Of a stretch of DNA of 64,000 bases, positions 17,949-22,277 are shown in pieces. Position 1 is the first letter of the stretch. Each line of letters opens with the position of its first letter. Below the pieces are notes generated by a model. It saw nothing but the letters and a program-made list of their open reading frames with translations. It did no database searches and had not been told where the DNA came from. The DNA comes from Halobacillus salinarum (lineage in GTDB: Bacteria > Bacillota > Bacilli > Bacillales > Halobacillaceae), in assembly GCF_022919095.1 (NCBI RefSeq), contig NZ_CP095073.1, forward strand, positions 682,001 through 746,000, written 5' to 3'. Position numbers and translations under genes: made by a program.

Positions 17949-18092
17949 TCAGGATACCGGTGGATAAATGGCATCATTGTCAGGCTGATAGGCGTTGCCG
18001 GCGGTATCTTGCCATCCAGAAGAGTACCCATAGCCAAAACTTAAGGCAATGGCGAACACTCCAGCTGCGATGAAGGCAGTTACTTTTTTCAT
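17949..18092 (-). CDS. small exported peptide, putative signalling peptide precursor
   Basis: 47 residues: a Lys pair at the N-terminus, a hydrophobic secretion signal (VTAFIAAGVFAIALSFGYG) and a hydrophilic tail that ends QPDNDAIYPPVS. It starts 13 bases after the stop of the TPR regulator, and its AAAGGGGG ribosome site overlaps that stop, so translation is coupled. I use the ATG at 18092; the ATG at 18098 lies too close to the ribosome site. Size, secretion signal and position match PapR, NprX and Phr propeptides of RNPP systems, which mature to 5-10 C-terminal residues. The sequence is not one I recognise. Function is inferred from context. Confidence 0.72.
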   Translation of the reverse strand: MKKVTAFIAAGVFAIALSFGYGYSSGWQDTAGNAYQPDNDAIYPPVS

Positions 18093-18105
18093 CGTCATTC
18101 CCCCT

Positions 18106-19335
18106 TTAGCTGATGATCTGCTTGTAGTAGTCAGAAGCTGATTTATATTTATGTTCCTCATAATAGAGGTCTGCAAGTTTCTTAATATAAAAGTGAAGGT
18201 CGTCCTTATCTCCATATTTTGAGAAATAGGGAAGGATATGATCTTTTAACAATACCTCTATTTCATGATGATCAGCTTCTCTTAATTGGCAGGAAAGATA
18301 TTCAAACTTAAGAAGATATTCTTTATTTTCGTTCTTCTCAGCCAATTCCTTTCCTTTCTTAATAGATATGCGGGCACTTTCTGAATTATTCATAGCCATA
18401 TGGGACTTGCTCATTAAAAATAGAGAGCCCAGCTGTGTACTTGCAGAATCAGAAAGGATATCTATCGCTTTTTGTAAGTAAAGAAGAGCTTGATCATAGT
18501 GCTGCTGATTATATAATAGATAGCCGAAATTATGATAGAGCATTCCCTTGAAAGAGATGTCAATATCTTCAAAAGGACGGTCCATCATTTTTTGGAAATA
18601 ATCCTTTGATAATTCATACTCTCCCAACAGGTTGTAATTAATCCCGAGAATCATATAGCAGTCCATGATCCGTCGGTATTCCAATTGATCCTGAAACAGT
18701 ATGACTGCCTGCTCAGCGTAGGAATTCGAATGAATGAGCTTGTTATGCCGGCTGTAAGCAATGGCCAGCTTATAGCGAAGGTCCCCTTGCTTCTTTGGAC
18801 CTTCAAAGGATAGAGCTGCGTGGAAGGCATGAATGGCTTCTTCAGCTTGGAAAAAGGATAGAGCAGCAGTCCCTTTAATTAACTCAAAATAATACCGTTG
18901 TTCTTCATTCATCAGCGTTTTCATAGGGTCCAGCTCGTGAAGCTGCCTTTGATAAAGCTCTATCTCTCGTTTGAAGAAAAAATAGTAAAGGGAAAATAAT
19001 TCAAAATAGATTTCCATATGATAACTGAGTTCAGCTTCTGAGAATTCAGTTTTCAGCTGGTGATACATTCTATCAGCTTCTAATTCGTTCCTTTGCTGAG
19101 TAAAAGAGTAGAACGAAAAGAGTTCTTTTCTTAATAAGAGGGAGTCGGCTTGAAAGATTCTATGGATTTCAAGACCGAGACGGGTGCAGAGCTTTGCGAG
19201 CACATCTTCCCGTGGCATTCTTTTTCCGTTTTCGATTTGGCTTAAATAAGTGATCGAACATATCTGGTCAGCCAATTGTTCGAGAGTGAGGTCGGATTTT
19301 CGGCGGAAGTAGTGAATTAAATGTCCAAGTTCCAT
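18106..19335 (-). CDS. RNPP-type regulator: XRE helix-turn-helix plus TPR repeats (NprR/PlcR-like)
   Basis: 409 residues from the ATG at 19335; an ATG two codons upstream is possible but stands only 4 bases from GGAG. Residues about 3-60 are an XRE DNA-binding domain (LTLEQLADQICSITYLSQIE, NGKRMPREDVLAKLCTRLG). The rest is a series of TPR-like helical pairs (YHNFGYLLYNQQHYDQALLY and LADLYYEEHKYKSASDYYKQ are clear units). This layout is that of quorum-sensing regulators NprR, PlcR and PrgX, whose TPR domain binds a re-imported peptide. It is not a Rap phosphatase, which would have no HTH. The peptide gene follows directly. A subtilase lies upstream on the same strand, as proteases are common targets. 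Confidence 0.85.
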   Translation of the reverse strand: MELGHLIHYFRRKSDLTLEQLADQICSITYLSQIENGKRMPREDVLAKLCTRLGLEIHRIFQADSLLLRKELFSFYSFTQQRNELEADRMYHQLKTEFSEAELSYHMEIYFELFSLYYFFFKREIELYQRQLHELDPMKTLMNEEQRYYFELIKGTAALSFFQAEEAIHAFHAALSFEGPKKQGDLRYKLAIAYSRHNKLIHSNSYAEQAVILFQDQLEYRRIMDCYMILGINYNLLGEYELSKDYFQKMMDRPFEDIDISFKGMLYHNFGYLLYNQQHYDQALLYLQKAIDILSDSASTQLGSLFLMSKSHMAMNNSESARISIKKGKELAEKNENKEYLLKFEYLSCQLREADHHEIEVLLKDHILPYFSKYGDKDDLHFYIKKLADLYYEEHKYKSASDYYKQIIS

Positions 19336-19446: not shown

Positions 19447-19481
19447 AAAAACGCTCCATTGTCCTAAAGAACAATAGAGCG
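19447..19481 (-). terminator. terminator of the subtilase gene
   Basis: Stem CGCTCTATTGT / ACAATGGAGCG with an 8-base loop; on the minus strand followed by TTTTTGGGTCTTTTTTGGG. It separates the subtilase from the regulator. Confidence 0.75.
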
Positions 19482-19491
19482 AAGAATCAAG

Positions 19492-20691
19492 TCACTTTAC
19501 CAGGGCAAACCGGCCATCCAATTGCTCATCATTACATGGACTACGTTCTTTGTTTTGAGCTTCTGCGAACGCTTTTAATTTAAGCCGCAAGGAATGGTTC
19601 GACATTTGTAAATCCTGGCTCCAAATTCCCGCAGCTAATCCGGCGATATGAGGGGGAGCCGTGCTGTTCCCGCTTAATGTACGATAACCTCCATCCTTCC
19701 AAGTGGATTCAATCCCTATACCCGGAGCTTTTACGTGGATCTCGCCATCAATAATTTCGTAACCAGCGCCAGTTTGTTTTATAAGTGGGTGTTTATTATT
19801 GGATCTAAGAGAAGTGACTGTATTTGGACCAGATAAATAACTGATCTCTCCTGGCGAAATTTTCGCACGGTTACTTCCTTCGTTAGCCCCTCTAATGATA
19901 AGGGCACCTTTATGATTCGCATAAGTGATCGCTTGTGAGATTAGAGCGTCTCTTTCTTCAAAGCACATGGATATGACTACTTTTGTCCCCGCTTTCTCAG
20001 CTTGATCGGCGGCATGGCGGATGGCATAAGCAACGTCATCAGAATAGCCGCTTCCGTTTTTGCCAAGGACTTTGTATGCCCATAATTTAGCTCCAGGAGC
20101 AATCCCAAAGATTCCTAATCCGTCGGATCCTCCATTTGCTAATACAGTTCCTGCTGCATGGGTTCCATGCCCGTGCTCATCATGGCATTGGTTTCTAAGA
20201 GAGTGCTCTGCACTGCTGAAGTCTTTGCATTGCTCGACATTTTCTGCTAAATCGACGTGATTGATATACACGCCGGTGTCGAGAATAGCGACTCTAACTC
20301 CGCTGCCCCGTCCAGAAGTTCCGTTCATCCCTGCTTCCTGGTACAACGTTTTCACACCTCTTGGAATCCGATCCTTTGGCATTGAGTGGTGAGAAGTGTC
20401 TGAAGAAAGGCCAGGCTCAAGCTTAACTTTGGGTATTAATTCAACATTTATGTTTTGTTTCTTTTTCAATAGTTGATATTGTTTTTCACTTACCGTCGTT
20501 GAGAAACTTTTATCAAAATTCCAACGTACTCCATACTGTTTTTTTACTTGAGGACTAGGCTGATTTTCTCGAATAAGGACACGGATGGTTTTCTTATTTG
20601 CTCTGCTATGTTTTTCATCGGAGAAAAGAACAGAGGAAATTTTCGTTGCAACTACTAGGAACAAATGGCTTAGTAATGAAACGCTCTTCAT
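19492..20691 (-). CDS. subtilisin-like serine protease (S8 family), probably exported
   Basis: 399 residues from the ATG at 20691, which follows GAGGTGGAG; the frame is open further upstream but without a ribosome site. An N-terminal hydrophobic stretch (SLLSHLFLVVATKISSVLF) may be the signal peptide, followed by a propeptide to about residue 110. Catalytic triad: Asp138 (AILDTG), His175 (HGHGTHAAG) and Ser343 (LSGNSTAPPHIAG); oxyanion Asn270 in RGANEGSN. The Ser box reads GNSTAPPH instead of the usual GTSMAxPH. The last ~45 residues form a short extension. It lies beside the NprR-like regulator and may be a target. Confidence 0.88.
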   Translation of the reverse strand: MKSVSLLSHLFLVVATKISSVLFSDEKHSRANKKTIRVLIRENQPSPQVKKQYGVRWNFDKSFSTTVSEKQYQLLKKKQNINVELIPKVKLEPGLSSDTSHHSMPKDRIPRGVKTLYQEAGMNGTSGRGSGVRVAILDTGVYINHVDLAENVEQCKDFSSAEHSLRNQCHDEHGHGTHAAGTVLANGGSDGLGIFGIAPGAKLWAYKVLGKNGSGYSDDVAYAIRHAADQAEKAGTKVVISMCFEERDALISQAITYANHKGALIIRGANEGSNRAKISPGEISYLSGPNTVTSLRSNNKHPLIKQTGAGYEIIDGEIHVKAPGIGIESTWKDGGYRTLSGNSTAPPHIAGLAAGIWSQDLQMSNHSLRLKLKAFAEAQNKERSPCNDEQLDGRFALVK

Positions 20692-20916
20692 TTTTCTCCA
20701 CCTCACATATTTATTATTCCTAAGCTGAACATCCGATGCTTGTCCTTTAGGTACACCCCCTTGAAAAATATCTGAATATTCAATCTTTGTAATCATTATT
20801 GTATCATCGCTTGATCTCAAGGGGTATTGAGAAAAAAACGATAAAAGATTCTATTAAAATACATGTTTACCCTTTTTTTTCTCCACCTCTCTAAAGCAGG
20901 CTGAATGAAAAGCTGT

Positions 20917-21377: not shown

Positions 21378-21815
21378 TTATTCAATCATAATTCTGCGTT
21401 CTGGTTTTTGGATTCGCATGTAACGGATGAGTAAAAGGCCATTTACATATTTGGTTTGCAAAGGTACATCTTCCGCCGGTTCGGGAAGGATGATGGTCCG
21501 TTCGAATTCCCCGTATTTCCGTTCTTGTTGAATGGTTTTGTGTCCTTCAAGAAGAGGATGGACAATCCCTTTTATTCTTAGCTTATTTTCAGTAATTGTA
21601 AGCTCAATGTCTTCTTTATGCACCCCTGAAAGTTCAATAAATACATATACCTCTTCTTCTGTTGTGTGTATATCAGCCGGAGGATAGGCAGGGCTTGTGG
21701 ACTGCTTATCGATTTCAACCATATTTCCGTCTTTCTCAAAAACGTGGGTCCAGAAATCTCCTGTTTGATATTGTTTGGCAATATCCATCCACTGGTGAAG
21801 CTTATCGGACTCCAT
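21378..21815 (-). CDS. Hsp20/alpha-crystallin family protein, probable spore coat type
   Basis: 145 residues. The alpha-crystallin domain runs from about 50 to 140: PPADIHTTEEEVYVFIELSG, VHKEDIELTITENKLRIKG, then YGEFERTIILPEPAED and the VNGLLLIRYMR strand that replaces the usual GVLTVxxPK. The N-terminal region is short. A tandem second Hsp20 gene is upstream with 15 bases between. Their place inside a gerP-like operon points to coat function as for CotP rather than heat shock. Confidence 0.78.
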   Translation of the reverse strand: MESDKLHQWMDIAKQYQTGDFWTHVFEKDGNMVEIDKQSTSPAYPPADIHTTEEEVYVFIELSGVHKEDIELTITENKLRIKGIVHPLLEGHKTIQQERKYGEFERTIILPEPAEDVPLQTKYVNGLLLIRYMRIQKPERRIMIE

Positions 21816-21830
21816 TCAAAACCCTCCCTG

Positions 21831-22277
21831 CTAATCCCTTTTGACATTGATTTCAGAATACTGAGTATCGACTTTCTTCGGAAGCCTGATTTGTAGTTCT
21901 TCATCGCTGTACCTGGCGACCGCGCCTTTTTTCTTTACTAGGGCGGGAAGTGTAATTGTATGAAGGTCTCCAGGCTTTGGAAATCCTTCAATCATCAATT
22001 GGTAGGACTTGTGGTAAATTTTCAATTCTTCAAGCGAATCACTGGGGTGGACAGGGATCTTTATATACACATGGTCATGAGTATCAAAGACGCTTTCATT
22101 GAGGTTCTTTTCTCTTGGTGTTGCCGGAGCAGCAAGTCCGCCCATATGAGCGAATCCTGCAGGCATGGAATTTTCCAATACTCCGTTAACGAACTTATGA
22201 ATATCGTTAGACTGGGCAGCTTTCATCCATTTTTGGGCATCTTCGCCAAAAGGAAACATCGATTGAAATGGATTCAT
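21831..22277 (-). CDS. Hsp20-like protein with divergent alpha-crystallin domain, probable spore coat type
   Basis: 148 residues. The C-terminal half has the crystallin pattern: VFDTHDHVYIKIPVHPSDS, LEELKIYHKSYQLMIEGF, HTITLPALVKKKGAVARYSD and ELQIRLPKK. The N-terminal 60 residues, with KWMKAAQSNDIHKFVNGVLE, are unlike ordinary small heat-shock proteins. AGAAGGAGAT ribosome site. Third gene of the operon that starts at the SigK-type promoter. B. subtilis CotP/YdfT-like coat proteins are the nearest idea; not certain. Confidence 0.65.
   Translation of the reverse strand: MNPFQSMFPFGEDAQKWMKAAQSNDIHKFVNGVLENSMPAGFAHMGGLAAPATPREKNLNESVFDTHDHVYIKIPVHPSDSLEELKIYHKSYQLMIEGFPKPGDLHTITLPALVKKKGAVARYSDEELQIRLPKKVDTQYSEINVKRD

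Follow-up and report, generated by a model that had tools for sequence, protein, structure and literature searches.

Work on NprR has centred on the Bacillus cereus group and on a single peptide. Described relatives include Rap and QssR, which are placed with NprR in one clan of nine-TPR receptors (PMC12700828), and 11,872 strict candidate pairs have been reported in 34 clusters (PMC10075063). The locus described here resembles NprR-NprX of the Bacillus cereus group (structures 4gpk and 5dbk) in that an HTH domain is followed by a predicted nine TPRs and a gene for an exported-type peptide lies directly downstream. It also shares features with three other systems: with Rap-Phr the modelled nine-TPR fold and an exported-peptide gene beside the receptor, with PlcR-PapR an HTH and TPR regulator followed by an exported peptide, and with AloR-AloP of Paenibacillus, which is reported to occur as many pairs per genome (PMC7425212), an HTH-TPR receptor with an adjacent propeptide. 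However, Rap lacks an HTH domain, whereas HTH_3 is present here; PlcR is described as having five TPRs (PMC12700828); and AloR-AloP differs by description, being placed in another clan (PMC12700828) and having a mature AloP13 given as SHGRGG.

The window, which is the whole 64,000-nucleotide stretch of Halobacillus salinarum DNA analysed, comes from a probably halophilic host whose genome is assembled as a single contig of 4.24 Mb; the 60 relatives searched all belong to other genera. On its minus strand a subtilase gene, a terminator-like hairpin, a regulator gene and a peptide gene follow one another in that order. The sequence-only reading had proposed an XRE-TPR regulator beside the gene for a 47-residue exported-type peptide, with the regulator stop touching the ribosome site of the peptide gene and a subtilase gene adjoining, and all of these points hold. 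The receptor gene (18106..19335, minus strand) encodes 409 aa from the ATG at 19335 (the alternative starts are ATG 19338 or TTG 19344) and has the Pfam domains HTH_3 (E 1.1e-10) and TPR_2 (E 3.5e-9). Its stop codon (18106-18108) has one base in common with the Shine-Dalgarno sequence of the peptide gene, AAGGGGGA (18099..18106, minus strand), and the peptide ORF begins 13 nt downstream of the stop. This open frame is 88 aa long, and the ATG suitably spaced from the Shine-Dalgarno sequence gives 47 aa (putative pro-pheromone MKKVTAFIAAGVFAIALSFGYGYSSGWQDTAGNAYQPDNDAIYPPVS, gene at 17949..18092, minus strand). The peptide starts with KK, continues with a hydrophobic stretch, ends in the polar tail QPDNDAIYPPVS and is predicted to be exported. 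It matches no Pfam family, and the NCBIfam library gave one chance-level match (E 0.23). The predicted signal core NDAIYPPVS (residues 39-47; 17952..17978, minus strand), with mature ends placed by prediction, contains the motif D-A-I-Y-P.

The subtilase gene (19492..20691, minus strand; 399 aa from the ATG at 20691, the start codon being a choice) matches Peptidase_S8 (E 9.5e-29). The enzyme has a signal-peptide-like start and keeps the D, H and S motifs (VAILDTG, HGTH and GNSTAPP). Between it and the regulator stands a hairpin of 13 pairs with a T tail (19452..19481, minus strand), one of 4 terminator-like sites observed in the stretch against 2.7 expected. Thus, the receptor/peptide pair may have its own promoter. 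Upstream of the subtilase (21378-22277) lie two adjoining small-heat-shock-like genes, the first supported by a Pfam match to HSP20 (E 5.8e-13 for 21378-21815) and the second judged by eye.

We propose, with a probability of about 0.72, that this locus is a quorum-controlled exoprotease switch, a two-gene NprR-like cassette that would act via a dyad of about 60 bp on secreted proteases. What computation contributes to this proposal is the gene pair and its nearest relative, a conserved motif, a subtilase linkage that recurs, and the dyad, present in relatives and as a diverged copy in the window.

The regulator had been called NprR/PlcR-like, and only the NprR half of that name stands. In a phmmer search of known structures NprR 4gpk was the top natural protein (E 3e-10), and only designed TPR proteins scored higher. 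A profile built from 19 homologues, which also served as the AlphaFold2 input alignment, placed NprR 4gpk first (E 2.9e-59), followed by a designed TPR protein (7.1e-57), by Rap proteins (2.4e-45 and weaker) and by PlcR, which was matched at positions 2-125 only (E 4.4e-8). The AlphaFold2 model (mean pLDDT 92.7) has an XRE HTH at about residues 2-57 and then 18 helices, which would form nine TPR-type pairs. Foldseek put NprR 5dbk at the top for this model (E 2.1e-10). VIA-align did likewise (Z 32.6, rmsd 3.6, 345 residues), with NprX-bound NprR (Z 30.8) and Rap (Z 30.7) tied for second place and AimR further down (Z 19.6). By profile and by model, the closest solved relative of the receptor is NprR, not PlcR. 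A PlcR-like identity was dropped because profile and fold searches both put NprR first, and the five-TPR PlcR type was excluded by the 18 helices after the HTH and by an NprR alignment that spans 345 residues. The TPR domain, which had been expected to be of a peptide-binding type, models as the NprR/Rap superhelix, and window Asn269 aligns to the column of NprR N275, which is Asn in 51/53 other peptide-linked receptors and in 54/59 of those without a peptide gene.

We compared the locus with 113 distinct regulators of at least 330 aa (loci L002-L131); identical regulators were merged, and a match was left out if it fell short of 330 aa or if its stop codon was not contained in the locus. An S8 gene adjoins 18 of 112 regulators (tblastn plus S8 profile, window excluded), against 0.82 expected in the flanks examined from the S8 density of 61 genomes (404 matches in about 238 Mb). 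The linkage is commoner where a peptide gene is present (13/53) than where it is not (5/59; Fisher P 0.037). The linked enzymes vary in size, type and orientation, a pattern that looks more like an association formed several times than like a single block passed down. The closest locus, in Thalassobacillus sp. CUG 92003, has the same order of subtilase-like gene, receptor and propeptide (NDAKYPGF), and its subtilase-like gene (L052:1837-2955) ends just before the receptor. However, none of the D, H and S motifs is present in that gene, which weighs against our reading. It is possible, from its sequence, that it encodes a pseudoprotease in a locus whose order and candidate operator have been kept.

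Promoters of subtilase-linked receptors contain a wide inverted repeat. The consensus of this dyad is TTGGGAAA-N43-45-TTTCCCAA, about 60 bp in all, and it is found before receptors and before subtilases; apart from it, the short palindromes in the same promoters share no pattern. With up to one mismatch per half and a gap of 20-80, dyad halves were found before 21/113 receptors (Markov mean 1.6, max 6), and in 20 of these 21 the gap is 43-45. Three loci (L115, L124 and L046) have two copies each, the distal copy lying toward a divergent subtilase. The exact dyad occurs at 27 sites in 14/61 genomes, and the reversed-pattern control at 0 in the same 61. For 17 of these 27 sites an S8 open frame is no more than 350 bp away, and one site lies before a receptor only. 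The other nine, at neither subtilase nor receptor, count against our reading; they comprise one site ahead of an M4 neutral protease, three ahead of small proteins, one near an O-methyltransferase gene and four without an assignment. The exact-dyad loci away from subtilases and receptors are L135, L137, L145, L147, L157, L158, L160 and L163. The M4 neutral protease is that of L157, and the small proteins, in L135, L145 and L160, begin in a signal-like way and match no Pfam family.

Across the order, the dyad was found in 83 of 397 genomes (control matches were noticed in G068 and G205), and in 78 of those 83 a receptor is matched at E<=1e-100, versus 50 of the 314 others. Among the 28 further loci listed, the site is no more than 400 bp from a subtilase in 21 and from a receptor in 10, which gives 23/28 with at least one of the two; the remaining 5/28, at neither, again weigh against our reading. 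Six second sites in these loci were left uncounted, three beside the same receptor/subtilase pairs and three at a locus end. Altogether 38/55 of the dyad sites examined stand at a subtilase. Nearly all of the dyad, motif and linkage counts are over related sequences and so are not independent, which inflates the figures. From the constant spacing, the control and the placement, the simplest reading is that the dyad serves as a functional site of the receptor family.

The exact dyad is absent from the window genome (0 sites). Near copies there (N44, up to three mismatches) number 39, versus 35 in the control, and this lack of enrichment leaves no basis for drawing a regulon of this genome. A diverged copy, the candidate operator TGGAGAAA-N43-TTTCTCAA, precedes the window subtilase (20827..20885, minus strand; 3 mismatches from the family dyad; P 0.008 or 0.012 in Markov shuffles, depending on the stretch chosen). 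The Thalassobacillus subtilase promoter has TTGAAAAA-N44-TTTCTCAA (3 mismatches, P 0.010), and the variant right half TTTCTCAA is common to both. Six regions were tried and the P values are uncorrected for that number, so the diverged copies at both subtilase promoters are moderate, not strong, evidence for an operator. A relaxed pattern, TKGRRAAA-N43-45-TTTYYCMA, matches once in the Thalassobacillus genome (G002), at the subtilase promoter, and six times in the window genome; it was derived after both subtilase promoters had been viewed, and we set it aside as circular. No dyad copy was found before the window receptor (P 0.83), before the Thalassobacillus receptor (P 0.76), or before the paralogues L032 and L033 of the window genome. 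Thus, autoregulation is unsupported here.

These results bear on the alternative that the pheromone/receptor cassette is genuine and has its own operon or distant genes as target rather than the subtilase, the dyad in the window being a chance occurrence. It would fit the hairpin that stands between subtilase and receptor, the lack of an exact dyad and of any enrichment of near copies in the window genome, and the description of B. thuringiensis NprR as controlling at least 41 genes (PMC5641580). It accounts poorly, however, for S8 linkage at 18/112 regulators where 0.82 is expected, for the identical gene order in Thalassobacillus, for the 38 of 55 examined dyad sites at subtilases, and for a correctly spaced copy in both subtilase promoters. 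We consider it unlikely, and retain the subtilase as the foremost candidate target.

The contact residues of NprR suggest how far the likeness to NprR-NprX extends. R126, reported to be essential for peptide binding (PMC4970707), corresponds to R123 in the window receptor and to D in that of Thalassobacillus. The residues W167 and H201, described as stacking on a lysine of NprX, and D107, Y118, E188 and Y223, described as contacting Spo0F (PMC4970707), are replaced in the window by A164 and R196 and by S104, S115, Q183 and L218, respectively; N306 and D309 have become T and G. By alignment, the scaffold would thus be kept and the pocket retuned. The peptides also differ, with a D/E-x-x-aromatic-P core (here DAIYPPVS) against the reported SSKPDIVG of NprX (PMC4970707). 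NprR-NprX controls extracellular protease, and here this has its counterpart only in the adjacent gene, for an S8 subtilase, and its candidate operator, a 60-bp dyad not found in the literature searched. The window tail has no KPD and A164 and R196 occupy the stacking positions, and we therefore classify the pair as NprR-like and keep it apart from the NprR-NprX system proper.

The receptor might instead, like B. thuringiensis NprR, moonlight as a phosphatase that dephosphorylates Spo0F when empty and so restrains sporulation until the peptide releases it. The Rap fold score close to those of NprR (Z 30.7 vs 30.8 and 32.6) would suit such a role, as would the presence of D107 in 24/53 and of Y223 in 28/53 other peptide-linked receptors. 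However, the window has S, S, Q and L at the four Spo0F contacts and Tyr is not listed at column 118 for any receptor group. The phosphatase side-line is thus probably absent from the window protein, and this alternative has little chance of being right.

We identified a small exported-like ORF (Lys/Arg start, hydrophobic stretch, Shine-Dalgarno sequence) downstream of 54/113 regulator homologues, as expected if a small gene recurs beside the regulator in relatives. By the same criteria 59/113 homologues lack one, which weighs against our reading. Sixteen homologues, mostly from Halobacillus, form a class ending in TQKKDLL or similar, and none of these has a small ORF by the criteria. The counts include three unlikely cases (L020, L034 and L094, scored motif-negative) and miss likely ones, such as L017, which has three DELYPDP repeats and falls below the hydrophobicity cut. 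Among 53 distinct propeptides, that of the window included, 38 have [DE]x(1,2)[YHFW]P after residue 22, where 2000 tail shuffles gave a mean of 5.2 and a maximum of 12 propeptides with the motif. As a further control we took 290 other long frames (at least 200 aa, six frames) from the window and the 80 named loci L052-L131. With the same criteria, exported-like small ORFs stand behind 40/84 regulators versus 11/290 of these frames, and motif-bearing ones behind 31/84 versus 0/290.

The peptide C-terminus had been expected to vary in a non-random way, and the D/E-x-x-aromatic-Pro core is indeed kept in the propeptide tails while the residues behind it change. NDAxYP is common to the Thalassobacillus tail, FANDAKYPGFDSVEDTF, and the window tail, PDNDAIYPPVS. 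Several propeptides contain the core in tandem: AGDDSDYPDNKIG three times in L036, an IDQHPDPT unit five times in L085 and three repeats in L114, with L128, L115 and others as further cases. A published survey reports repeats in 17/17 NprR-type propeptides of atypically large size and found that 40% of its NprR matches had a peptide gene (PMC9765709); the propeptide repeats and peptide-gene frequency found here agree with that study. In two Fictibacillus propeptides (L106 and L122) the tandem units are HDDNPR or HDQNP, with Asn in place of the aromatic residue before Pro. The window genome has a second pair, L033 (G000:C1:815392-818400), consisting of a receptor and a 39-aa exported-like peptide that ends in SAEHAYPKPLSTEQL and has relatives ending YPRPL in L044 and WPRPL in L045. 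Behind three further receptor homologues of this genome (L032, L034 and L035) no convincing peptide gene is found; L032 is one of the TQKKDLL class.

The recurrence of motif and small ORF behind the homologues makes it very probable that receptor and small gene are a pheromone/receptor pair with the predicted signal core ...NDAIYPPVS. A small gene that is a chance neighbour, encoding an unrelated secreted or membrane peptide and no signal, would fit its absence by criteria from 59/113 homologues and the variable residues after the core, but given the motif behind 31/84 receptors against 0/290 other frames, the tandem repeats of the core and the coupling of the regulator stop to the peptide-gene Shine-Dalgarno sequence, this is the least credible explanation of all. 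The RNPP-type reading first made from the letters of the locus is strengthened by the recurrence, the kept core and the modelled TPR superhelix. Three features of RRNPP (RRNPPA) systems are found here, namely a predicted TPR superhelix receptor, an adjacent propeptide of 10-100 aa that is predicted to be exported, and conservation of the propeptide beside homologues, and so are those of the NprR receptor type (HTH followed by a predicted nine TPRs, with NprR nearest). A phage or mobile origin was rejected: there was no match in the phage collection, viral contigs gave 28 pattern stretches and no relative, ten plasmid records matched only distantly (23.7-34.3% identity), and nothing suggests a mobile element.

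For the proposed exoprotease switch we infer a cycle that runs from co-transcription, export, trimming, import and binding to a tetramer, activation and the sign of that activation. Receptor and pro-peptide would be made from one transcript, and the pro-peptide would be exported by Sec, after which trimming outside the cell would yield a short peptide from the region of NDAIYPPVS. An oligopeptide permease would re-import this peptide (the window genome has six SBP_bac_5 genes), and it would then occupy the groove of the receptor, with its nine TPRs. Once loaded, the receptor, probably assembled as a tetramer that carries two pairs of HTH domains as NprR-NprX does, would bind the dyad of about 60 bp and activate secreted proteases, the adjacent subtilase foremost. 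The NprR-NprX tetramer is reported to have two sites for DNA binding (PMC4970707); by analogy, two such sites per tetramer would match half-sites with a separation of four to five helical turns.

The cycle might close on itself. The Phr peptides of B. subtilis are reported to be matured by extracellular proteases, subtilisin, Epr and Vpr among them (PMC11343458), and here such a protease recurs beside the receptor in many genomes. By analogy, the loaded receptor would, via a rigidly spaced dyad with a tetramer bound to it, switch on the subtilase that trims the pro-pheromone, so that in many Bacillales the signal would drive its own maturation. We regard this extension as rather doubtful.

The kind of system is already known, whereas the peptide core, the subtilase linkage and the dyad appear to be undescribed. 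None of the three was found in literature searches, with the search for the core confined to DYP-like strings in a few papers. The word protease is absent from the main text of two surveys of the family, and relatives of the pair may be in their supplementary tables. Searches with the half-sites and with NprR and operator terms found no description of the dyad; one Bacillus promoter paper contains both half-site strings, as a primer pair. Because this family has a distinct and recognisable core, occurs in many natural variants and comes with a candidate DNA site, it would allow receptor-peptide specificity and an NprR-type regulon to be tested across many genera of soil and salt water. The dyad may also offer a route to predicting which secreted proteases, including those of the subtilisin type, are under cell-density control.
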